46,598 nucleotides of DNA from Leeuwenhoekiella sp. (GTDB lineage: Bacteria > Bacteroidota > Bacteroidia > Flavobacteriales > Flavobacteriaceae). The DNA is taken from the NCBI GenBank assembly GCA_011050015.1, contig DRGP01000093.1:1-46598 (forward strand), read 5' to 3'. The translations under genes and the position numbers were made by a program. The notes under the pieces are model-generated. The model was given only the letters and a program-made list of their open reading frames with translations, searched no databases and was not told the DNA's origin. Shown here piece by piece: positions 12,059 through 38,465 of this stretch (position 1 is the stretch's first letter; every line of letters begins with the position of its first letter).

Positions 12059-15000
12059 ATGGAAAATTACAGACACATAAGGTTATTCTTGTCCGATTCA
12101 ATAAAATTGGGTACAAGAACCAAGCTTTTTATCTTCTTATCAATAACGACCCTTTTTTCCCTACAAGCGAAATCGTTTTCGCAGAAGAAAAAAGTAACCT
12201 TCAACCTGGAAAATGTTCAGATGCTAAGGATAATGGAGGAAATTGAATCAATAACCGATTTCAAATTTCTTTATGATATTAATAAAATTGACACTTCGGT
12301 AATAGAATCAATCAAAGTAAAAAATACTCCGCTTGATGATGTCCTTGCCATTCTTTTTAATGGTTCTAACGTCGATTTTATTTTTAAAGGAAATCAAATT
12401 GTATTAAAGCTAAAACCAGAACTTCCAGACAAAGGACTGGGTGAACAGAATAAGAGAAGGGCTGAAACCACCCCGGTTCAGACAATTATTACAGGAACCG
12501 TAACCGATAGTAACGGCTTGCCAATTCCCGGAGTTTCGGTAGTTGAGAAAAACACGACCAATGGTACCGCAACTGATTTTGACGGTAATTATTCAATTAC
12601 TCTGAATCAGGCAAATGCAGCATTGGTTTTTAGTTTCGTTGGGTTTGCAACGAAAGAAGTCGCTGTGCCGGATTCTGGTTCTTTAAATGTTACGATGACA
12701 GAAGATACACAAAATCTTGACGAGGTTGTGGTAACTGCGCTGGGGATAAAACAAGAGGTCAGAAAATTAGGTTACTCGATTGCCTCAGTTGATGCTGAAG
12801 AAGTAAACATAAATCGTTCATCAAATTTCATGAACTCCTTACAAGGTAAGGTAGCTGGTGTTAATGTATCTGGTCTAAGTACCGGTCCGGGTGGATCTTC
12901 TAAAGTTCGTATTCGGGGTCAGTCTTCCATATCCGGAACTAACAATCCATTGATAGTGGTCAACGGTGTTCCTATTGATAATTCCAGTTTTGGGACCAGT
13001 ATAGGAAGCAGCAGCAGTGAACTGGGCACAAATAGCGGCGGTGTAACTTCAGACGGTGGAGATGGCTTCTCCAGTATCAATCCTGACGATATTGAAAGCA
13101 TGACCATTCTTAAAGGTGCTACAGGCGCTGCATTATACGGTTCCCGTGCAAAAGATGGAGTCATTATGATTACAACCAAAACCGGGGGAACGGGTAAGGG
13201 TATCGGGGTTAGCTATACCATAAGTATGGCGAATCAAAACCCTCTGGATTTTACTGATTTTCAATACGAATATGGACAAGGGGAGAACGGGGTTAGACCA
13301 ACTTCGCCAAATCCCACCTCAGGCCAATGGTCATTTGGTGAAAGGTTTGAACCGGGATTGACCCAGGTATTGTTTGATGGTATTGAAATTCCCTATGTGC
13401 CTGTTTATGATAACATCAAAAAATTCTACCGCCAGGGATTAGATATAACCAATTCAATTTCTCTTTCTGGGAACGGTGAAAATGGTGGCTTTAATCTTTC
13501 TCTGTCCAATCTGGAGAGCACTGGTATTACACCCAACAATAAATTTGAACGGATCAATGTTAGTTTGGCAGGCAATTACAACCTGACGGAAAAACTTTCA
13601 TTTGCTACGAGTATTAATTACTCCAATGAGCTGAATATTAACCCTCCTAACGTAGGTCAACAGGATAATACAATCTCAGTATCCCTTTATAATCTAGCCA
13701 ACTCGATGCCACTGGATTTGCTGGATGCAAACAAGTTTGATGAAAATGGTAATGAATACGTATACTCTCGTTTCAGAAATAGGACCAATCCTTATTTTAC
13801 ATTGAGTGAACAATTCAACACCATCAGGAGAGATCGTATTTTTGGGAATGCCTCCCTAAAATACAATTTTCTTCCCTGGTTGTTTGTACAGGCAAGAGTA
13901 GGACAAGATTACTGGTCAAGAGACCAGGAGTATAACGGTTTCCCAACGGGCCAGGCGGCAATAGGACCGGCACCTGAAGGTTTCGTCAATGGTTCTTATA
14001 CCCAGGAAGTGCGTAGGTTCAGGGAGACCAATATCGACTTTTTATTTTCGGCAGATACTGATTTAAGTGATGATTTTGGTCTTGCCGTCCTCTTTGGTGG
14101 GAACCGATTATACCGTAGGGCAGACCTCAACAGGGTAAATGTTACTGACTTTGTAATACGCGATCTGTACACCGTACAAAACGGGCGTGTAAAGGATCCC
14201 ATTTATAATTTATCAGAAAGGGCTGTCAATTCATTATATGGGTCTGCCGATCTTTCCTTTAAAGAAACTTTATACCTAACGGGAACTTTACGTAATGACT
14301 GGTTTTCAACGCTTTCTCCAGCAAATAGAAGTATTTTATATCCTTCTCTATCGGCCAGTTATGTTTTTTCAAATAACCTGAATAGCGACTGGCTAAGCTT
14401 TGGTAAGTTAAGGGCCGCTTATGCAGAAGTGGGTAGTGATACAGATGTGCCCCCTTACTCAAACACGTTGTTCTATAACATAAATGCTAATTTCTTTGCA
14501 AATTCTAATGGTCAACTGCAACCGGTAGCCGGTCCGAATACGAATACCTTGCCTAACACGAACCTGAAGCCAGCACGTGTGACCGAAACAGAATTAGGAT
14601 TAGATATACGTATGTTCAAGAGCAGGGTAAACCTTGATCTGAGTGTTTATCGTAAAAGCACTTTTGACCAGATTATACCTGCACAGATTTCAAATACCTC
14701 TGGCTTTGTAAGTACCTTGATCAATAGCGGGGAGAGTAGAAGCGACGGTGTCGAGGCTCTTTTGACACTGGTACCCGTAAAGAATGACAATTTTCAATGG
14801 GATATCACCCTTAATAATTCCTATAACAAAACTAAGGTAATCAGTCTACTCAGTGACGAGCAAGGGGAGAGCATCTTAGTGGGTACACATGCCTTCAATG
14901 GGTTCTTGTTTCAGGTTGTAGGTAAGGAAATAGGGCAACTGGCTGGATTTGGCTTCAAAAAAGATGAACAGGGCAGACAGATATTTGGATCGGATGGCAG

Positions 15001-15565
15001 ACCATTGAGAACAGATGAAATTGTTTTTTTTGGTAGCGCCCTGCCCAGGTGGGTAGGTGGTATTACCAATACTTTTAGATATAAGGACTTTAATGCTTCT
15101 TTTCTTATTGATTTTAAATTAGGGGGGAAAATGATTTCAGGTACAAACTTTAATGCGGTTAGGCATGGTCTTCATAAAATGACCTTACCCGGAAGAGAAA
15201 CCGGGGTAGTTGGAGAAGGTGTCAATGAGGCCGGTCAACCTAATACAGTTGCAACTCCCTCGCAAACGTATTGGGAAGTGGTACGTTCACAGCAATTGAT
15301 AGAACCCATAGTCTATAATAGCGGGTTTTGGAAATTTAGACAACTATCTATTGGTTATAACTTCCGTCAATTCATTCCTGAAAATTCTCCACTTCAATCG
15401 GTAACATTAAATGTATTTGCCAATAATCTTTTCATTATAAAGAAATGGGTACCTAACATTGATCCAGATTCCTTTGGTTATAGTTCAGACAATGTGTCCG
15501 GTCTAGAATCTACAGGAGTACCTACCACAAGAAGTATTGGGTTTAACCTAAACTGCAAATTTTAA
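12059..15565 (+). CDS. SusC/RagA-family TonB-linked outer-membrane transporter with STN domain
   Basis: A 1168-aa outer-membrane protein. Order: signal/hydrophobic segment (about 22-42), STN signalling domain (about 45-118, FNLENVQMLRIMEEI, NTPLDDVLAILF), carboxypeptidase-D regulatory-like domain (about 143-216, TGTVTDSNGLPIPGVSV), TonB box region (DEVVVTALG, about 221-229), plug (to about 375) and a beta-barrel ending in FNLNCKF. SusC proteins import glycans or other large solutes together with a SusD lid. The STN domain is the part that talks to FecR, which fits the sigma/FecR pair upstream. The substrate is unknown; the neighbours suggest a sugar acid or an oligosaccharide containing one. 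Confidence 0.95.
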   Translation: MENYRHIRLFLSDSIKLGTRTKLFIFLSITTLFSLQAKSFSQKKKVTFNLENVQMLRIMEEIESITDFKFLYDINKIDTSVIESIKVKNTPLDDVLAILFNGSNVDFIFKGNQIVLKLKPELPDKGLGEQNKRRAETTPVQTIITGTVTDSNGLPIPGVSVVEKNTTNGTATDFDGNYSITLNQANAALVFSFVGFATKEVAVPDSGSLNVTMTEDTQNLDEVVVTALGIKQEVRKLGYSIASVDAEEVNINRSSNFMNSLQGKVAGVNVSGLSTGPGGSSKVRIRGQSSISGTNNPLIVVNGVPIDNSSFGTSIGSSSSELGTNSGGVTSDGGDGFSSINPDDIESMTILKGATGAALYGSRAKDGVIMITTKTGGTGKGIGVSYTISMANQNPLDFTDFQYEYGQGENGVRPTSPNPTSGQWSFGERFEPGLTQVLFDGIEIPYVPVYDNIKKFYRQGLDITNSISLSGNGENGGFNLSLSNLESTGITPNNKFERINVSLAGNYNLTEKLSFATSINYSNELNINPPNVGQQDNTISVSLYNLANSMPLDLLDANKFDENGNEYVYSRFRNRTNPYFTLSEQFNTIRRDRIFGNASLKYNFLPWLFVQARVGQDYWSRDQEYNGFPTGQAAIGPAPEGFVNGSYTQEVRRFRETNIDFLFSADTDLSDDFGLAVLFGGNRLYRRADLNRVNVTDFVIRDLYTVQNGRVKDPIYNLSERAVNSLYGSADLSFKETLYLTGTLRNDWFSTLSPANRSILYPSLSASYVFSNNLNSDWLSFGKLRAAYAEVGSDTDVPPYSNTLFYNINANFFANSNGQLQPVAGPNTNTLPNTNLKPARVTETELGLDIRMFKSRVNLDLSVYRKSTFDQIIPAQISNTSGFVSTLINSGESRSDGVEALLTLVPVKNDNFQWDITLNNSYNKTKVISLLSDEQGESILVGTHAFNGFLFQVVGKEIGQLAGFGFKKDEQGRQIFGSDGRPLRTDEIVFFGSALPRWVGGITNTFRYKDFNASFLIDFKLGGKMISGTNFNAVRHGLHKMTLPGRETGVVGEGVNEAGQPNTVATPSQTYWEVVRSQQLIEPIVYNSGFWKFRQLSIGYNFRQFIPENSPLQSVTLNVFANNLFIIKKWVPNIDPDSFGYSSDNVSGLESTGVPTTRSIGFNLNCKF

Positions 15566-24485: not shown

Positions 24486-25676
24486 TTAATATAAAAAGCC
24501 GAAAAGCCAAAGTGGAAGCTTGGTTACGGGAAATTCCACATTGTCTGCAACCACATAAGCATTTAGAATGTTTTTGATCTGTTTAGATGTTTTGTCCTTG
24601 CCCCCTACTTCAAAAGTGTATTTATCATCGATCAGAAAATCGCCTTTCTTGGGATAAGCGATCTGATGCCCTACCGCAACTTGAGATAGAAAAAAAGTCT
24701 CTCTTAAATTCCCTGTATTCGGTGACTGTTCAGAAAAAATAAATGCTAGGTTGGGATTGTCCAGATATATTTTTTCCGGCTTTTGAAGCAGGGCCACACT
24801 AATACCAGAAGGGTATAAAAGCCTTATTAATTGAGCTTGTTCTAGATAGTGCAGGTATTGTACCACTGTATTGCGATGAATGCCGCTCTTTGTGGCAATT
24901 GCGGTAATATTGGGCTGGAAAGGTACGTTTGCCGCCAAAATGCTTAAAAGTTGCAATATTTTTTTAGCGTTGCGAATGTCGAATCCCTTGATCTCCGCCA
25001 TATCATATTCTACAATCAAACGTGTCAACTGCTGCAAACGTGTGGCATAACCTTGTTTATCTTCCAATGAAAAGGGATAGTATCCATATTGCAGATAGTC
25101 GCGGAAATGCTTGAGGGGCCTGAAATTTTCTGGAAATAGGGCTGCCCAATTACGGTTTGGCAAAAGTATATGCGATAGTTTTAAAGCTGGGTACTCTAAT
25201 ATATTATTAAACTCTAAATACTCGCGAAACGAAAGGCCGTGCAATTGATACATGAGCATACGCCGGCTCAGGTCTCCAGACTCCCTGGCAATGTCGATAA
25301 TGGAAGAGCCGGTAAATACAATATTCAGCTTGGGGTAAAAATCATAAAGATTTTTGATTTGAACTGACCAGTTCTCATACTTGTGTACCTCGTCAAGAAA
25401 AAGGTGGGTACCGCCCTGCTTATAAAACTGTTCGGCGGTTTCTACCAAGGTATTGGAGTTAAAATAAAAATCATCCAAAGACCAATAACTGGCTTGATCA
25501 GGGGGAAGCTGTAATTGGTTGAGTCTTTGAAGCAGCATAGTAGTCTTACCCGTACCGCGCGAGCCCTTGATGCCTATCAGACGGTTCTTCCAATTGATCA
25601 CGGTATAGAGATAACGTCGCCTGCTAAGGGCAACATTTTCCACTAATTGAGCCGATTTTTCTAATAATTGATCCAT
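24486..25676 (-). CDS. AAA-family ATPase with DUF4143-like C-terminus (copy 1)
   Basis: A 396-aa ATPase. Walker A is GSRGTGKT (about residues 38-45), Walker B is LFLDEVHKYENW (about 92-103) and a sensor-like IVFTGSS follows. A winged-helix-like region with NITAIATKSGIHRNTVVQYLHYLEQA (about 255-280) precedes a C-terminal domain with GDF and TFEVGGKDKT, a possible PD-(D/E)xK-type core, and the protein ends in LPLWLFGFLY. This AAA_14/DUF4143 type is common in prokaryotes and poorly understood. It is a diverged paralogue of the next gene, with the same ending. Two 18-bp palindromes sit directly before its ATG. Confidence 0.85.
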   Translation of the reverse strand: MDQLLEKSAQLVENVALSRRRYLYTVINWKNRLIGIKGSRGTGKTTMLLQRLNQLQLPPDQASYWSLDDFYFNSNTLVETAEQFYKQGGTHLFLDEVHKYENWSVQIKNLYDFYPKLNIVFTGSSIIDIARESGDLSRRMLMYQLHGLSFREYLEFNNILEYPALKLSHILLPNRNWAALFPENFRPLKHFRDYLQYGYYPFSLEDKQGYATRLQQLTRLIVEYDMAEIKGFDIRNAKKILQLLSILAANVPFQPNITAIATKSGIHRNTVVQYLHYLEQAQLIRLLYPSGISVALLQKPEKIYLDNPNLAFIFSEQSPNTGNLRETFFLSQVAVGHQIAYPKKGDFLIDDKYTFEVGGKDKTSKQIKNILNAYVVADNVEFPVTKLPLWLFGFLY

Positions 25677-25678
25677 TG

Positions 25679-25729
25679 TGCATTTTTAAAAGTGCAATTT
25701 AATGTAAATATTGCATTTTTAAAAGTGCA
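25679..25729 (-). repeat. Two 18-bp palindromic repeats before the copy-1 ATPase
   Basis: TGCATTTTTAAAAGTGCA occurs identically at 25679-25696 and 25712-25729, exactly 33 bp apart, with the first copy ending 3 bp from the start codon. Each is a near-palindrome (TGCA..TGCA around TTTTAAAA). Likely an operator pair or a leader-RNA element of this gene. Confidence 0.8.
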
Positions 25730-25939
25730 AAGTTGTATTTGTTGATAGCGATGAAAATTCATGAGGTTCTATTCTCGAAATTATACCTTTAGATCGGGAA
25801 TTCAACGACTGCGTTAGGAGTATTGTGTTTTCTATCTGAACTTACCATATTTCAATTCCTCTATGATTCGATTGGAGGTTAAGAATGGCTTTCTTAAGTG
25901 AAATTGGAATCGATATTTTTTAAATTAATGATTCATAGG

Positions 25940-27142
25940 TTAATATAAAAATCCAAAAAGCCATAGGGGAACGGTATTGGCAAACCCGAACTCTATATCG
26001 TCCTTGGCCAAAAATCCATTTTTGACATCTTTAATTTGTTTAGAGGTCTTGTTCTTACCACCTACTTCGATAGTGAAATCAAATTCCGGTAGATAGAAAT
26101 CCCCTTTGGAAGGAAGCTTTAAAGCTACTTCTGCGTTGGAGAGTTGATTGAACAGAAAGGTCTCTCGGATATTCCCGATGTTTGGCATACTTGAAAAGGT
26201 GTAGGCTAGATTGGTGTTTTCCAGAAATATCTTTGCCGGTTTTTGAAGTGCCGAGGTGCTTTTTCCCTGTTTGGTCAAGGTATTGATCAGCATTGCCTTC
26301 TCTAAATGATCGAGCCAGATATATACAGATTCCCGGCTTACATCCAGTTTTCGCGCCAATGAGGAAATATTAGGCTGAAAGGGAATGGATTGCGCGATAA
26401 TACCCAACAACTGTTTTACCTTATATGCGGTAGATTTAGAGTAATTTTCGATAAAGGTCAGATCATTTTCTAGTATTGTCGTGATGACCTGTTGCATTCG
26501 TGGAACTAGATATTCTTTGCCTCCTTCTTCCTTGAAAATAGGTAGATATCCATAGTGCAGATACTTTTTAAATAGGGGCAGTGGCTGAATTCCGTTCATG
26601 ATAAACTCTAAGCTCTTGCTGCTAGATTCGAAAAGCGATTCTACTGGTATTTGGGGGAAATCCTTCGAGGTGGTAAGCTCCAAAAACTCCCTAAACGAAA
26701 GGCCGTAAAGTGTATATGGGATTACCCTACGCGAAAGATCAGATTCTCCCCTAAATATATCCAGCGCAGATGATGAGGTGAAAATCACTTTCATATCCTG
26801 AAAACCGTCATAAATCAATTTCAGTTCACGGGACCAATTTGGGTATTTATGAACCTCATCGATATATAAATGTCGGCCTCCATGCTGGTAAAAAGTCGTT
26901 GCAAGCTCAAATAATGTATTAGAATAAAACCAGTTATGGTCAGCGGTTACGTATAAGGCTTCAGAGGGGCTTTTCCCGCTGTTCCTTATGTGCTGGAGCA
27001 GAAGCGTGGTCTTGCCCGCACCACGTGGACCTTTTATGGCTATCATGCGCAGGTTCCAGTCAATTTTATCGTATAGATAGCGTTGATAGCTTGGCTGGTG
27101 CTGGTTCCTTAGTAATAGATAATATGCGATGAGCTCATCCAT
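25940..27142 (-). CDS. AAA-family ATPase with DUF4143-like C-terminus (copy 2)
   Basis: A 400-aa paralogue of the preceding ATPase with the same layout: Walker A GPRGAGKT, Walker B LYIDEVHKYPNW, sensor VIFTSSS, a winged-helix region NISSLARKLDVSRESVYIWLDHLEKA, then GDF and TIEVGGKNKT, ending VPLWLFGFLY. Sequence is clearly diverged from copy 1, so this is an old duplication or two separate acquisitions. It is 263 bp upstream of copy 1 on the same strand and has its own, different palindromic repeats. Function unknown; ATP-driven action on DNA or on a protein partner is possible. Confidence 0.85.
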   Translation of the reverse strand: MDELIAYYLLLRNQHQPSYQRYLYDKIDWNLRMIAIKGPRGAGKTTLLLQHIRNSGKSPSEALYVTADHNWFYSNTLFELATTFYQHGGRHLYIDEVHKYPNWSRELKLIYDGFQDMKVIFTSSSALDIFRGESDLSRRVIPYTLYGLSFREFLELTTSKDFPQIPVESLFESSSKSLEFIMNGIQPLPLFKKYLHYGYLPIFKEEGGKEYLVPRMQQVITTILENDLTFIENYSKSTAYKVKQLLGIIAQSIPFQPNISSLARKLDVSRESVYIWLDHLEKAMLINTLTKQGKSTSALQKPAKIFLENTNLAYTFSSMPNIGNIRETFLFNQLSNAEVALKLPSKGDFYLPEFDFTIEVGGKNKTSKQIKDVKNGFLAKDDIEFGFANTVPLWLFGFLY

Positions 27143-27146
27143 GATA

Positions 27147-27230
27147 TGTAATTATACAATTACAAATATAGTTTAAAAATGTAATGCGCACCTTACAATT
27201 TAAATATTAAAATGTATTTTTTACATTACA
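27147..27230 (-). repeat. Three 18-bp palindrome-like repeats before the copy-2 ATPase
   Basis: TGTAATTATACAATTACA (27147-27164), TGTAATGCGCACCTTACA (27180-27197) and TGTATTTTTTACATTACA (27213-27230) share TGTA...TTACA ends and start exactly 33 bp apart, the first only 5 bp before the ATG. Layout is the same as at copy 1 but with a different sequence. Confidence 0.78.
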
Positions 27231-27485: not shown

Positions 27486-28319
27486 ATGAAATTTTCAGGT
27501 CACGATACTTTTCATTGCCGATTATTTTGGCTTAAGAAAGGGTACGATTATATATCATCAGGTAATAAATTTAAAGATGATACAGGTGTTTATATTGGTG
27601 TAGGAAGAAATATGGTTAATTCTATCAGGTTTTGGTTAATGGCCTTTGGTATTGCTGACGACAACTATAACATTAAAGACTTATATAAAAAACTTTTAGA
27701 TGATAGTGGATGGGATCCTTATATAGAGAATGGAGGAACACTTCTTTTGTTACACCACGAATTATGTACAAATAATTATGCTTCAAGTTATAATATCATT
27801 TTCAGAGAATTTAGAAAGGTTAGACCAGAGTTTTCAAAGGATAATTTTGTAGAATATATCAAAACTCTAGATTCAAGCGTAAATGAAAATTCCTTGGAAA
27901 AAGATTTTTCAGTATTTCTGAGGATGTATGGCGAGACAAAAAATAAAATCGAGGATGGATACAGCGGTTTATTAACAGAGTTGTCGTTCTTACAAGAGCT
28001 TGGGAAAAATCAAAATGAAAAGATACTTTATCGAATCGAGAATAAATCCCAACAAGATCTTCCAATTGAGATATTACTTTACTGTATATTGACTAACCCT
28101 GACTATGGTAATTCAATAAGTTTTAAAAATTTCTATTCGGATAAAAACGGTATAGGTAATATCTTTTGTCTTGACCAAGATGTTTTAGAAACAAAACTTG
28201 AAGAACTTTCTGATCAATATGGAGAGATAAATTATAATAGCGAAGCGGGCGTGAAAGAATTGCAATTTAAATCAAAACCCGACCCATTCGTTGTTTTAAA
28301 TAGTTATTATTATGCATAA
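27486..28319 (+). CDS. DUF4007 protein, SspB-like candidate
   Basis: A 277-aa protein with the DUF4007 hallmark N-terminus (FSGHDTFHCRLFWLKKGYD) and GVGRNMVNSIRFWLMAFGI around residues 37-55, a helix-turn-helix-like part. DUF4007 proteins are found beside PAPS-reductase-like enzymes in DNA phosphorothioation clusters; from memory the nickase-like SspB of Ssp systems is of this type, which should be verified. It is the first gene of a compact operon, overlapping the ATPase gene by 8 bp. Codon use and base composition are AT-rich like the rest of the operon. Confidence 0.8.
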   Translation: MKFSGHDTFHCRLFWLKKGYDYISSGNKFKDDTGVYIGVGRNMVNSIRFWLMAFGIADDNYNIKDLYKKLLDDSGWDPYIENGGTLLLLHHELCTNNYASSYNIIFREFRKVRPEFSKDNFVEYIKTLDSSVNENSLEKDFSVFLRMYGETKNKIEDGYSGLLTELSFLQELGKNQNEKILYRIENKSQQDLPIEILLYCILTNPDYGNSISFKNFYSDKNGIGNIFCLDQDVLETKLEELSDQYGEINYNSEAGVKELQFKSKPDPFVVLNSYYYA

Positions 28320-31300
28320 GACAATGACTTCCATAAATATAATACGAGATAGTGAAGCAAATCTTCGGTATTTTGTTACGCCTAACGCTGTAAAGACCAG
28401 TCAGCATATCTTTGAAAATTTTGACAAAGGATATCATTCTTTTAATATAATTGGATCATTCGGAACAGGTAAATCCTCATTTTTATGGGCTTTGGAAAGA
28501 TCTCTAAAAAAAGATGAATCTTATTTCGATACCAAATTTAATGGTAGAACCGATTTTCTAAAAATAGTTGGCGATTATCAGTCTTTACGTACTGCATTGT
28601 ATAATGAGTTGGATGTGAAGGAAGATCTTTCTGGCAATCAAATGCTTTTTAATAAAATCTATGAACGATATGAAAAAGCCAAAGCCAAAAATGGATTATT
28701 GGTAATTGCGATAGATGAGTTTGGAAAATTCTTAGAATATGCTGCGAAAAACAATTCTGAAGAAGAACTATACTTTTTACAGAAATTGGCGGAATTTATT
28801 AATGAGGCCAGCAGAAATATCATATTAATCACTACACTTCATCAAAATTTAGAGTCTTATGCCTATAACTTAGAAAAAGCTCAAATTCAAGAATGGAGAA
28901 AGGTTAAGGGTAGATTTATTGATTTAACTTTTAACGAGCCGGTTGAGCAATTAATTCTATTGGCTTCTAAGGCCATTGATCATCCAAAAGGCAAAAAGGT
29001 AAAACATCATACCAGTTCCTTTATTAAAGAGTTTGACCTTTTTAGTTTTCAAGAAGAAAATCTAAAATCAATAGAATCAAATCTCTTTCCATTAAGCGCA
29101 ATTAGTGCTTATTCTCTCGCCAACTCTTTGCAGAGATATGGACAAAATGAGCGTTCTTTATTTACATTTTTAAATTCCATTACCTTTTCTAAATTCATAG
29201 AATCAGGAACACCTTTCGAACTTCCCGAAGCGTATGATTACTTGTTTGAAGAGTTTTACGGATTTATTACTAGTAAGAATAATCCAGACTATACTAATTG
29301 GGCCAGTATAAAAAATGCTCTCGAAAGGGCTGAACTGCTTACTGAAACAGGTGGCTCGCTGATTCAAGAACTTTTAAAGTCAATTGGGCTTCTCAATATA
29401 TTCGCAAAGAAGAGTGCTAAGATTAATCATGAATTTTTTCTAAATTATTTTTCTTCTAAATTCACATTAGAAGACATAGAAAATGCTCTTTTGCTGCTTC
29501 AAAAAAATCAGATTATCCGATTTAGCAAGTTTAACAAGTCTTTCAAACTTTTTGAAGGAACCGATTTGGACATCGAAGGAGAAATATCTAAAGCGGAAAA
29601 TAAGATTGGTGGAATAGATATTCTCAAAAAATTAAGCTCTCATTTCGATTTCCCTGTAATAATAGCAAAGTCTACCACTTATAGAACCGGTACACCAAGA
29701 CTGTTTCAGTTTTTATTGTCAGATGAACCTATTTTTCAAACACCGAAGGGACAAATAGACGGTTTTATCAATTTGATTTTCACTCAAGAAGGGATCGATC
29801 AAGAGAAGCTTTGTTCAAAAACATCTAATTCTAGCACATTGAGTGGTTACTTTACTAATACTGCTGGAATTTTTGAGACATTGTTTGAAATTGAAAAGAC
29901 AAATGAAGTATTAAAAAGCATTCAAGGAGAAAAAGACCTCGTAGCCATACGTGAATTAAAATCCATTATCCGCAGTAACGAAATACTGCTGAACCATTAT
30001 GTAATGAATAGTTTATACACTAATCGCGTAAAATGGTTTTGTAATGGTCAAGAAATACAAATTGACAGTAAGCAAGTCTTTAACCAAGCACTCTCAACGA
30101 TTTGCTTTGATGTATATTCTTCAACGCCAAACATTCAAAATGAACTTATAAATAGACATAAGACCTCTGGGTCTATTTCTTCTGCAAGAAAAAGTTTTTG
30201 GACTGCTCTAACAAATAATTTTCATCTTGAGGATTTAGGTTTTCCAAAAGATAAATGGCCAGCCGAAAAAACCATTTACTATTCCCTTCTCAAAAAAACC
30301 GGAATACATAGGGAAATTGATGGTATCTATACCTTTTCACTTCCAGCAGATGAAGGTTTTCATATACTTTGGAATATCAGTATGGACTTTTTGAATCAAA
30401 CAAAGTCTGCTGAGAAAAGATTGATAGAATTTAATCAAGTGCTTTCATCAGCCCCATTAAAATTGAAACAGGGGATTATTGATTTTTGGGTGCCGACTTT
30501 TTTGTTTATTAAGCGAGGGGATTTTGCATTATTCAACAGTAATGGTTTTGTTCCTTATTTGGATGAAACTATTCTTCATATGATGACTAGAAACCCAAAA
30601 GAGTTTTCAATCAAAAGTTTTGAGCTCAATGAGCTTAGATTAAATCTTTTCAATAAATATCGGGATCTCTTAAGACAGGAAAATAAGAACAAACTTGATA
30701 CGGATTCCTTTATAGAAAGCATCAGACCACTATTGATATTTTATAGAGACTTAACCGATTATAGTCAAAATACATTGACCGTTTCGCCCGAAGCTGTGAA
30801 ATTGCGTGAAGCAATTAGCAAGGCAAAGGATCCCGAAAAAACATTTTTTGAGGCATTTCCCGAATCATTGGGATATTCACTGAAAGATTTGGGAGAGGAT
30901 AACAGCCTTTTTGAAGATTATGTATTTGCATTTCAGAATGCTATTGAAGAAATTAAAAATTCTTATTCTGACTTATTGGATAGATTTGAATTGTTTATTT
31001 GTGATGAGATATTAGGGGAAAAGCTAAATTTTGAGAACTATAAAAATAGGCTGCAAAATAGATTCCGATCTATTAAGGAGCATCAGGCACTTACTCGGCA
31101 CAAGATATTGCTTTTAAGAATTAACTCGAATCTTGATGATAGAGATAGCTATTTAATGTCTTTAGCTCAAGCTTTACTTGGGAAGCCTTTGAATACCATC
31201 AAAGATCCTGAAGAAAGAATGCTTAAAGACAAATTTTTTACAATTGCCAGAGAGTTAGATAATCTTACAGATTTAGATAGGGTTAGAGTGAACGATGACG

Positions 31301-31500
31301 ACTTCTTGATGAAGTTACAACTAACTACAGCTAAAGACGGTGGAATGGAACGTATCCTGAGACTTAATCCAAAACAAAGGATAGAGGTTGAAAAAAGGAT
31401 GATAAAATTATCGGAGTCTCTAGATAATGATGGTAGTCTCAAAATACCTATATTGGTGGCACTATTAAAAAAAGAATTAGACAAGGATGAAGAAGCCTAG
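28312..31500 (+). CDS. Large P-loop ATPase of a phosphorothioation-like defence operon (SspC-like position)
   Basis: A 1062-aa cytoplasmic protein. Walker A is GSFGTGKS at residues 48-55 and Walker B is LLVIAIDEFGKF with D136/E137, followed by a sensor-like IILITTLHQN. The remainder is long and helical, without a domain I can name. The size and N-terminal NTPase recall BrxC/PglY and SspC-type ATPases of defence islands. It overlaps both neighbours (8 bp upstream, 14 bp downstream), which implies translational coupling. A Met at 28324 is an alternative start. It probably supplies energy or a scaffold for the DNA modification step. Confidence 0.8.
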   Translation: MHKTMTSINIIRDSEANLRYFVTPNAVKTSQHIFENFDKGYHSFNIIGSFGTGKSSFLWALERSLKKDESYFDTKFNGRTDFLKIVGDYQSLRTALYNELDVKEDLSGNQMLFNKIYERYEKAKAKNGLLVIAIDEFGKFLEYAAKNNSEEELYFLQKLAEFINEASRNIILITTLHQNLESYAYNLEKAQIQEWRKVKGRFIDLTFNEPVEQLILLASKAIDHPKGKKVKHHTSSFIKEFDLFSFQEENLKSIESNLFPLSAISAYSLANSLQRYGQNERSLFTFLNSITFSKFIESGTPFELPEAYDYLFEEFYGFITSKNNPDYTNWASIKNALERAELLTETGGSLIQELLKSIGLLNIFAKKSAKINHEFFLNYFSSKFTLEDIENALLLLQKNQIIRFSKFNKSFKLFEGTDLDIEGEISKAENKIGGIDILKKLSSHFDFPVIIAKSTTYRTGTPRLFQFLLSDEPIFQTPKGQIDGFINLIFTQEGIDQEKLCSKTSNSSTLSGYFTNTAGIFETLFEIEKTNEVLKSIQGEKDLVAIRELKSIIRSNEILLNHYVMNSLYTNRVKWFCNGQEIQIDSKQVFNQALSTICFDVYSSTPNIQNELINRHKTSGSISSARKSFWTALTNNFHLEDLGFPKDKWPAEKTIYYSLLKKTGIHREIDGIYTFSLPADEGFHILWNISMDFLNQTKSAEKRLIEFNQVLSSAPLKLKQGIIDFWVPTFLFIKRGDFALFNSNGFVPYLDETILHMMTRNPKEFSIKSFELNELRLNLFNKYRDLLRQENKNKLDTDSFIESIRPLLIFYRDLTDYSQNTLTVSPEAVKLREAISKAKDPEKTFFEAFPESLGYSLKDLGEDNSLFEDYVFAFQNAIEEIKNSYSDLLDRFELFICDEILGEKLNFENYKNRLQNRFRSIKEHQALTRHKILLLRINSNLDDRDSYLMSLAQALLGKPLNTIKDPEERMLKDKFFTIARELDNLTDLDRVRVNDDDFLMKLQLTTAKDGGMERILRLNPKQRIEVEKRMIKLSESLDNDGSLKIPILVALLKKELDKDEEA

Positions 31501-32626
31501 ACACATATTAGGTATTTCGGGAGGGAAGGATAGTGCCGCTTTAGCCATCTATCTAAACGACCGTTACCCACAAATCGATTTTCAATATTATTTCTGTGAT
31601 ACTGGTAAAGAATTGGATGAAACCTATGAATTGATAACTAGTATTGAATCTTACTTAGGGAAATCTATAAAAAAACTTGACAATCCTGAGATTAATAGTA
31701 CCGGGGATGACCCATTTGATTTTTATTTCAAATCATTCAGGGGTTATTTGCCTTCTCCCCAAGCGAGATGGTGCACGGCCTTAATGAAACTTAAACCGTT
31801 TGAAAAGTTTGTCAATGGGGATTCTGCAATTTCGTATGTAGGCATTAGGGGCGATGAAGATAGGGAAGGTTATATCTCCAGGGAAAATAATATACAATCT
31901 ATATTTCCTTTTAGAAAAAACATCTGGAGCAATGACGTTCTGCTCAAGTTTTTTGATCCAAAAAATCAACCAAAAGTATCCGAATATTTTAATCAATATT
32001 TTAGTGGAGAAAACTTGGATAGAGTCCTTTCATATTTGAAAGAACCCATTTCCTTTGATAGAAATCATAAAGCTGAAACGGAAAAGACTTTAAAACACAA
32101 AGTCAATAGCTCTCTCAATGTTGGTATTCCTGAGTTTAACAGAACCGTATTTGATTTTTTAAAGACAACAGATTATCCCTTGGCTTCCGAGATTGATTAT
32201 GCTCTATTAGACAATGAAGATGTTTTGGTCAGGGATGATATTTTTAAAATACTACGAGAATCTGGAGTTGGCGTACCGGCCTATTATGAGAAGGTTGAAT
32301 TTGAAGTTGATGGGCAAAAAGGCGAATATGCAAGAAGTCGATCTGGATGTTATTTTTGCTTTTTCCAACAGAAAATAGAGTGGATATGGCTTTACGAGCA
32401 ACATCCAGAAATGTTCAAAAAAGCGATGACTTACGAAAACGAGGATGAACTATTTACTTGGGTGCCCAATGAGTCCTTAAAAGAATTAGTACAACCACAG
32501 CGCATTAAACAAATTAAATTAGGCCATATACAACGATCTAATAAAGAAAAATCTAAATCATCTCCTTACCTTTTAGATATTTTGGAAGGTACAGAAAGGG
32601 ATGGTTGTAATACTTGTTTTTTATAA
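31487..32626 (+). CDS. PAPS-reductase-fold (DndC/SspD-like) sulfur-transfer enzyme
   Basis: A 379-aa ATP-pyrophosphatase-fold protein with the PP-loop SGGKDSA at residues 11-17, GIRGDEDREGY at about 119-129, and cysteines arranged as C96, C288xxC291 and C374xxC377, suitable for an iron-sulfur cluster. DndC and SspD use this fold and such a cluster to activate DNA for sulfur insertion, giving phosphorothioate backbones. Metabolic PAPS reductases are shorter, and no sulfate-assimilation genes are near. The gene overlaps the ATPase gene by 14 bp. No cysteine desulfurase (DndA/SspA) is encoded in the window; a host IscS/SufS could supply sulfur. Confidence 0.88.
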   Translation: MKKPRHILGISGGKDSAALAIYLNDRYPQIDFQYYFCDTGKELDETYELITSIESYLGKSIKKLDNPEINSTGDDPFDFYFKSFRGYLPSPQARWCTALMKLKPFEKFVNGDSAISYVGIRGDEDREGYISRENNIQSIFPFRKNIWSNDVLLKFFDPKNQPKVSEYFNQYFSGENLDRVLSYLKEPISFDRNHKAETEKTLKHKVNSSLNVGIPEFNRTVFDFLKTTDYPLASEIDYALLDNEDVLVRDDIFKILRESGVGVPAYYEKVEFEVDGQKGEYARSRSGCYFCFFQQKIEWIWLYEQHPEMFKKAMTYENEDELFTWVPNESLKELVQPQRIKQIKLGHIQRSNKEKSKSSPYLLDILEGTERDGCNTCFL

Positions 32627-38075: not shown

Positions 38076-38465
38076 TTATGAGTTTTGATTGTTTTCCGTT
38101 GATTTTAAAGATTCTTGGATATCCTCCGGCTTCTTTTCCACCATCAGAGATTTCTTTTTGGGCTCGGCCGCTTCAAATAGCGATTGCATCATAGCGGCCG
38201 TCGGTCTGGTCTGCGTCCTTTCGATATCCTTTAAAATGGCGATAACGCTATTGATCCTCTTTTTGACCAGGCTTTCCAAAGTCCGCACCTGTGGCTCGAT
38301 AGATTCGCCCGGTGATATCCCGTTGGCCTCAAAAAACTCCAACATGGCAAGCAGTGTCATGGACTGGAACCTGGAGATCGACCGGGAATATCCCCTGAAT
38401 TTCTTGGCCACGGATCTCTTGATGCTCAGGCTCTCGAACCGTTCCTTTTTATATTTCTTATCCAT
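38076..38465 (-). CDS. BfmA/BtgA-family mobilisation protein
   Basis: A 129-aa basic protein with SLSIKRSVAKKFRGYSRSIS (about 13-32) and SMTLLAMLEFFEANGISP (about 35-52), the ribbon-helix-helix-like pattern of BfmA/BtgA proteins that bind oriT in Bacteroides mobilisable elements. The C-terminal half is a coiled, charged segment ending in Gln/Ser/Asn. The partner relaxase (BfmB/BtgB) is not encoded nearby. It lies 2 bp upstream of the broken gene on the same strand and has a repeated 16-bp motif at its start. Confidence 0.8.
   Translation of the reverse strand: MDKKYKKERFESLSIKRSVAKKFRGYSRSISRFQSMTLLAMLEFFEANGISPGESIEPQVRTLESLVKKRINSVIAILKDIERTQTRPTAAMMQSLFEAAEPKKKSLMVEKKPEDIQESLKSTENNQNS

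Follow-up and report, generated by a model that had tools for sequence, protein, structure and literature searches.

The window, meaning the whole 46.6 kb stretch of Leeuwenhoekiella sp. DNA that was analysed, carries a pair of related ATPase genes, each preceded by a short array of dyad-symmetric sites (Table 1). The encoded proteins are 45% identical. Both were assigned to AAA_14 by Pfam (copy 1, 1.5e-26, 93.4 bits; copy 2, 1.2e-27, 96.8 bits; gathering cut-off 27). The DUF4143 match scored 33.7 bits (3.6e-8) in copy 1 and 24.0 bits in copy 2, the latter below the gathering cut-off of 28.1. The preliminary description of two AAA/DUF4143-like ATPases is borne out with that qualification. The two copy-1 dyads are identical to each other, the three copy-2 dyads are related, and the two sets differ in sequence. 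The 18-bp sites were verified at the positions first given for them, with a step of 33 bp in all three intervals. They had been called palindromes; dyad symmetry is present at all five, in imperfect form (6–8 of 9 pairs). The first site of each array had been placed 3–5 bp from the ATG, a figure counted in coordinates; it does adjoin the ATG, and the actual gap is 2 bp for copy 1 and 4 bp for copy 2. The entire window was scanned at lags of 20–60 for paired 18-bp dyads in which the outer four bases per side were paired and identical. Qualifying pairs were found at lag 33 alone (starts 25679, 27147 and 27180).

Table 1. Features of the ATPase pair and its upstream sites (window positions).
Feature	Positions	Strand	Basis or remark
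ATPase copy 1 (P0001, 396 aa): AAA_14 P-loop, winged-helix region, C-terminal DUF4143	24486..25676	-	Pfam, PADLOC, AlphaFold2
Predicted helix-turn-helix codons, copy 1 residues 257-280; recognition helix 268-280 including N269	24837..24908	-	DSSP of model and covariation
Site 1a, 18-bp palindromic, TGCATTTTTAAAAGTGCA	25679..25696	.	8/9 complementary pairs; 2 bp to ATG
Site 1b, identical copy of 1a, 33 bp off	25712..25729	.	8/9 complementary pairs
ATPase copy 2 (P0002, 400 aa)	25940..27142	-	Pfam AAA_14, PDC-S01
Site 2a, TGTAATTATACAATTACA	27147..27164	.	8/9 pairs; 4 bp to ATG; -7 box ends in the site's outer TG
Putative -7 box TATATTTG, matches TAnnTTTG	27163..27170	-	Start 6 bp before site 2a; read from sequence
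Site 2b, TGTAATGCGCACCTTACA	27180..27197	.	7/9 pairs
Site 2c, TGTATTTTTTACATTACA	27213..27230	.	6/9 pairs

The region adjoining the ATPase pair is a defence island. Homologues of SspB, SspC and SspD (phosphorothioate-type defence) lie beside the pair at 27486-32626 (+), and this operon is followed by a GmrSD_N/NsnA-like gene and then a protein kinase. A mobilisation protein of the BfmA/BtgA family is encoded at 38076-38465 (-), which suggests that the island is mobile.

Homologues were drawn from 80 named contigs, whole genomes and five viral contigs; some sources yielded little (one added genome search gave one new locus, phage records gave 2 loci, and the order of genome G475 comprised 9 genomes). 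Each upstream region was tested for a pair of windows that are both palindromic and share one sequence, with every distance between 15 and 70 bp allowed. The first set retained 221 of 248 matching frames once incomplete ends, genes with <100 bp of upstream sequence and identical proteins had been removed. A score of at least 5 was reached by 100 of these genes; the distance was exactly 32 or 33 bp in 93 of them, 64–66 bp (double that step) in six and 58 bp in one. Shuffled upstreams reached this score in 8 of 884 cases, and at 32 or 33 bp in 0 of 884. Among the 243 non-identical proteins of the enlarged set, 98 had their repeat at 32 or 33 bp, 8 at 64–66 bp and 1 at another lag. Because some of the 243 genes are near-identical, counts were also taken after a 60% identity filter (n = 108; 45 at 32 or 33 bp, 4 at 64–66 bp, 0 elsewhere). 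The outcome that had been named beforehand as telling against the preliminary interpretation, namely homologues lacking periodic palindromes upstream, did not occur. Upstreams of neighbouring genes in the first set passed at any distance in 9 of 294 cases. At 32 or 33 bp, 337 neighbour upstreams gave three matches. One is the gene of the window itself, retrieved a second time; the other two are the two sides of a single intergenic region whose divergent gene encodes another AAA_14/DUF4143 ATPase. All three are thus at DUF4143 ATPase genes, and there was no match away from the superfamily among those neighbours. Periodic dyads are a feature of the ATPase family. No account of these arrays was found in the open-access papers that were searched.

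Arrays were accepted upstream of 136 genes, with 2 sites in 92, 3 in 36, 4 in 7 and 6 in 1; among the 107 of 243 genes that were not accepted, a number have degraded sites by eye. The longest array seen (L048, upstream of 3001) has six dyads, spaced successively by 33, 32, 32, 33 and 33 bp. Each site has the form TG-NNNN, 5–6 central bases and NNNN-CA, for a length of 17 or 18 bp. Steps between called sites were 33 bp (105), 32 bp (72) or longer (13). Since the acceptance rule asks for steps of ~32.5 bp, the spacing and arm conservation of accepted arrays are partly built in, and the unbiased evidence for spacing is that of the lag scans (221, 243 and 108 genes). Identity between neighbouring sites was 0.80–0.98 in the arms, 0.46–0.69 in the centre, 0.51–0.61 in the four flanking bases per side and 0.24–0.44 in the linkers, five or more bases outside. 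Linkers conserved this poorly rule out an origin of the arrays by tandem duplication.

A+T-rich upstreams, and an outer TG that partly coincides with the -7 promoter box, could in principle let chance, duplication or promoter composition produce such patterns. The shuffles, which gave nothing at 32 or 33 bp, exclude a chance origin together with the neighbour upstreams, the lag scan of the window and the identity-filtered set; the linkers and the recurrence of the same pitch in other phyla and in archaea (see below) also count against an explanation of this kind, whose probability is negligible.

The arms vary between genes, with 43 distinct four-base half-site cores among the 136. Half-site similarity was flat at 0.31–0.46 for proteins below 50% identity and rose to 0.68 at 50–60% and 0.86 above 60%. 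A core was common to 1 of 24 within-genome pairs, counted in a hand-listed set of genomes, versus 4.8% of all pairs. There is no excess here, and selected avoidance of cross-talk within genomes was set aside.

An AlphaFold2 model of copy 1 was obtained with pLDDT 89.6 and pTM 0.89. Secondary structure assignment by DSSP placed a helix-turn-helix in this model (helices 257-264 and 268-280, followed by strands). Solved folds were compared in a second look at Foldseek matches, from which a missing fold cannot be called absent; the best were SSO1545 (2fna; Z 15.3, 260 residues, rmsd 4.2) and PABY2304 (2qen; Z 15.1, 255 residues, rmsd 3.8), with CED-4 and plant NLR proteins at Z of about 13–14 over 250–273 residues. 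The domain arrangement of CED-4 and NLR proteins is termed NBD-HD-WHD, and STAND NTPases carry in addition a C-terminal superstructure of repeats. The NBD-HD-WHD fold of STAND NTPases was recovered in the model (SSO1545, Z 15.3; CED-4, Z about 14). The model has no STAND-type C-terminal repeats; its winged helix is followed by a mixed alpha/beta stretch of ~100 residues. The ATPase is best described, as modelled, as a STAND-like module with a predicted helix-turn-helix in place of the WHD. The active site of PD-(D/E)XK enzymes follows the pattern D ... E-x-K. In an alignment of 51 of the 82 available proteins, D346 and E356 are invariant and K362 is near-invariant, and the residue two after E356, where PD-(D/E)XK enzymes have lysine, is a near-invariant glycine. 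This substitution makes nuclease activity in the subfamily appear doubtful.

The -7 promoter element of Bacteroidetes has the consensus TAnnTTTG. Of the 136 array-bearing upstreams, 109 have this motif in their final 110 bp, versus 7% of shuffled ones. The box starts exactly 6 bp before a site in 58 of these 109 promoters, so that the first TG of the site completes the box; the window's copy 2 belongs to this overlapping type (site 2a). In 31 of the 109 the box starts 22–27 bp past the start of the nearest called site. In most box-bearing promoters the sites thus lie on or upstream of the box, where distal sites should escape transcription, and an RNA hairpin was set aside as the function of the dyads. 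The next dyad upstream of a box-overlapping one, 33 bp away, should cover the -33 region. In this commonest layout both the -7 and the -33 elements would be covered and RNA polymerase excluded, and we propose autorepression on this ground. The main rival to autorepression is activation, in which the ATPase would bind its own array and switch its promoter on in a self-reinforcing manner. STAND regulators of the MalT type activate promoters, and the 31 promoters with a box downstream of the nearest site have a geometry that would suit an activator. The 58 overlapping promoters do not, since a protein bound on the -7 box normally blocks polymerase, and activation is judged distinctly unlikely.

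The arrays are private to these ATPase genes as far as they were searched. In the window's own assembly (82% complete) there was no further copy of the copy-1 site with <2 mismatches and no other such two-site pair. Fifteen genomes with TGCA-type sites were searched throughout for the two-site pattern (TGCA half-sites, 33 bp, at most 1 mismatch). It was present at an ATPase gene in 15 of 15, and in none of them away from ATPase genes or a decayed copy. Three of these genomes gave second places. In G704 this is one array of three sites that was counted two times, in G1047 another pair within the same upstream, and in G1045 (L309:5169-5219) an array preceding a second ATPase copy that has decayed and lost its start codon. 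About 20 codons of the decayed copy are left after the array, and it adjoins a plus-strand gene pair that we take to resemble an AbiE-type pair.

The surviving array before a decayed gene would suit a different role, in which array and ATPase form a site-recognising unit for self-marking, homing or partition and the DUF4143 domain acts in a nuclease-like way at the sites. Plasmid copies exist, and the ATPase family is patchily distributed (40 of 296 phylum genomes, 69 of 396 class-sample genomes and 21 of 397 genomes of the taxonomic family, obtained at differing E-value limits), which would also suit this role. No two-site arrays were found away from the gene in the 15 genomes, the sites are phased to the promoter, and the E-x-K lysine is replaced by glycine; together these make a marking, homing or partition unit very unlikely. 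Site marking, which the preliminary description had entertained, gained no support of its own.

Covariation between the ATPase and its half-sites was analysed in 121 of the 136 arrays, retained after an 85% identity filter. In a sliding-window scan with overall similarity removed, local protein similarity tracked half-site similarity best at residues 256-282, and a repeat of the scan again peaked within 259-280. The top association among 22,841 residue-base pairs links N269, the second residue of the predicted recognition helix, to a C at base 3 of the half-site; this C was present in 53 of 73 genes with N269 versus 3 of 48 without. For the best-called sites the proportions were 37 of 44 versus 2 of 32 (first of 15,720 pairs). 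Within one 12-gene cluster C was found in 6 of 7 genes with N269 and 0 of 5 without; the seventh has a mixed site that was mis-registered by the caller. The window copies obey the same rule (HRN with TGC in copy 1, SRE with TGT in copy 2). Shared ancestry inflates this association. The window-scan peak did not reach significance against permutations of half-sites among 48 clusters, 240 of 500 of which attained the observed value. With one gene per cluster, the N269–C3 pair had a median p of 3.5e-4 and ranked 4th–22nd of 12,600–15,300, and a column scan at 50% clustering placed 0 of 2 strong pairs inside the helix-turn-helix. Residues 128 and 174, outside the helix-turn-helix, rank next after N269, and half-sites are predicted no less well by residues 220-245 than by the helix (p 0.003 vs 0.007–0.01). 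The nearest neighbour by whole protein also predicts half-sites better than that by helix window (mean 0.565 vs 0.472). Covariation of helix and arms is supported, and the case that the ATPase reads its own sites is fair, not conclusive. The earlier suggestion that each ATPase co-evolves with sites of the same architecture and its own sequence is supported by these associations and by the array test.

Binding by the ATPase itself is a step that we infer, and another host regulator could occupy the arrays instead. Many such regulators would be needed to account for the 43 distinct cores, and they would have to act solely at these genes in the genomes searched, on bases that covary with the ATPase's own helix and at a pitch that is the same in some archaea. 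A separate host regulator is accordingly regarded as highly improbable.

In the reading that we consider probable, private, phased operators let a STAND-like, sequence-specific DNA-binding ATPase regulate the promoter of its own gene. The winged helix (the WHD of NBD-HD-WHD) would read the TG-NNNN half-site, with one dimer per dyad. Contacts between the ATPase domains of neighbouring dimers, which would lie on one face of the helix at 32–33 bp or about three turns, would allow cooperative, possibly ATP-dependent assembly into an oligomer on 2–6 dyads, and these inter-dimer contacts would fix the pitch at about three turns. The arms and the recognition helix would drift together, and we propose that each lineage has in this way acquired its own private address. 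The self-regulating system envisaged in the preliminary description is supported by the number of homologues that carry arrays, the helix covariation and the position of a site on the -7 box; a role in defence would be a further, conditional step. We also considered a more elaborate arrangement, in which the NLR-like ATPase would polymerise on the helically phased dyads of its array, the array being both operator and docking platform, and would stay silent and inactive there until this platform is disturbed by incoming foreign DNA, damage to the chromosome or an altered nucleotide state, whereupon it would be released or derepressed. The diversifying address would in that case mean that arriving copies need not silence resident ones. 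This arrangement is unlikely, if less so than activation.

Several known systems share parts of the autoregulatory arrangement that we favour. C proteins of restriction systems and ParA are autoregulated repressors with tandem phased operators over their own promoters. They have tandem own-promoter sites in common with the window ATPases, to which they are unrelated as proteins; the ATPase arrays differ in keeping the 32/33-bp pitch while the arms diversify, across phyla and two domains of life. The archaeal AAA+ or Walker-type ATPases SSO1545 and PABY2304 are the closest solved folds, yet are only 18 and 15% identical and were absent from the best 60 of 136 profile matches, and we know of no operators for either. 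CED-4 and plant NLR proteins have the NBD-HD-WHD arrangement in common with the window ATPases, which are without their repeat sensor domain; to our knowledge, the winged helix of CED-4 and NLR proteins does not read private operators. The potato NLR Rx1 is reported to bind and bend DNA (PMC4599002). Mycobacterial IniR, a regulator able to bind a promoter, has an ATPase domain resembling SSO1545; it differs in its length of 818 aa, its separate LuxR-like DNA-binding domain, its MalT-like sensor and its control of another operon, iniBAC (PMC5760070).

Both window proteins match the PDC-S01 models of PADLOC (E-values 9e-32 for copy 1 and 6.1e-27 for copy 2, PADLOC's own cut-offs aside). According to the available portions of its description, PDC-S01 combines an ATPase domain with the PD-(D/E)-X-K superfamily and is a phage-defence candidate without established function, most PDCs awaiting validation; in frequency it ranks fourth among the defences of prokaryotes as a whole, archaeal systems numbering 9,986 and bacterial ones 29,494 (PMC12988326). 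Those same portions describe no operators, DNA specificity or regulation for it (PMC12988326). A private operator array would give such proteins a likely ligand, a ready reporter and a sequence-based prediction of binding specificity, and a large family without an assigned function would become directly testable. The arrays could also be used to find ATPase genes or their remnants and to correct start codons, and they would suggest that the winged helix of STAND/NLR proteins can be a diversifying, sequence-specific DNA reader.

The upstreams of canonical DUF4143 ATPases, none of which reaches 250 bits with the subfamily profile, were scanned for direct repeats. The gene starts are approximations derived from a Walker-A rule, and the set retains no Gracilibacteria genes. 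The set comprised 81 entries, including one window-derived locus, then 79 (25 matches), and 78 after duplicate removal. Among the 78, 24 had a direct repeat with a step of 32 or 33 bp (shuffles: mean 0.4, maximum 2). Eight other lag pairs gave 0 or 1, lags of 22/23 gave 6 and lags of 40/41 gave 5. Repeats at 22/23 or 40 bp, approximately two or four helical turns, were seen for example at L314, L369, L350, L093 and L100. By subset, repeats at 32 or 33 bp were found in 5 of 18 genes from the window's own family and in 19 of 60 from genomes reached through named loci; matches include Treponema, Marithrix, Omnitrophota and Chlorobiota, and the repeat was found in 0 of 5 Campylobacterota genes. 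In G1058, the Gracilibacteria genome of L081, in-frame stops interrupt 6 of 7 DUF4143 matches and all are TGA, which fits a genetic code that assigns TGA to an amino acid.

Thirteen plasmid-borne relatives were examined, the DUF4143 domain aside. The strongest repeat lay at 32–34 or 66 bp with a score of at least 11.5 in 8 of 13 (a count made without shuffle comparison), and the archaea among these eight are Methanomethylovorans, Methanosphaera, Haloferax and Haladaptatus. The other 5 of 13 were without the repeat (Acinetobacter, Thermococcus, Sulfuricurvum, Bandiella) or had it only weakly (Arcobacter cloacae). On the Methanosphaera plasmid (L382, upstream of 1129), three near-identical repeats precede an archaeal AAA ATPase gene exactly 32 bp apart. 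On the Arcobacter cloacae plasmid (L393:1393-2652), a related ATP-binding gene lies between cas3 and cas4. The Thermus thermophilus plasmid gene TT_P0211, with AAA_14, DUF4143 and HTH motifs, is tabulated among expression changes with a value of 6.6 in a section on the presence of plasmid DNA (PMC4406477).
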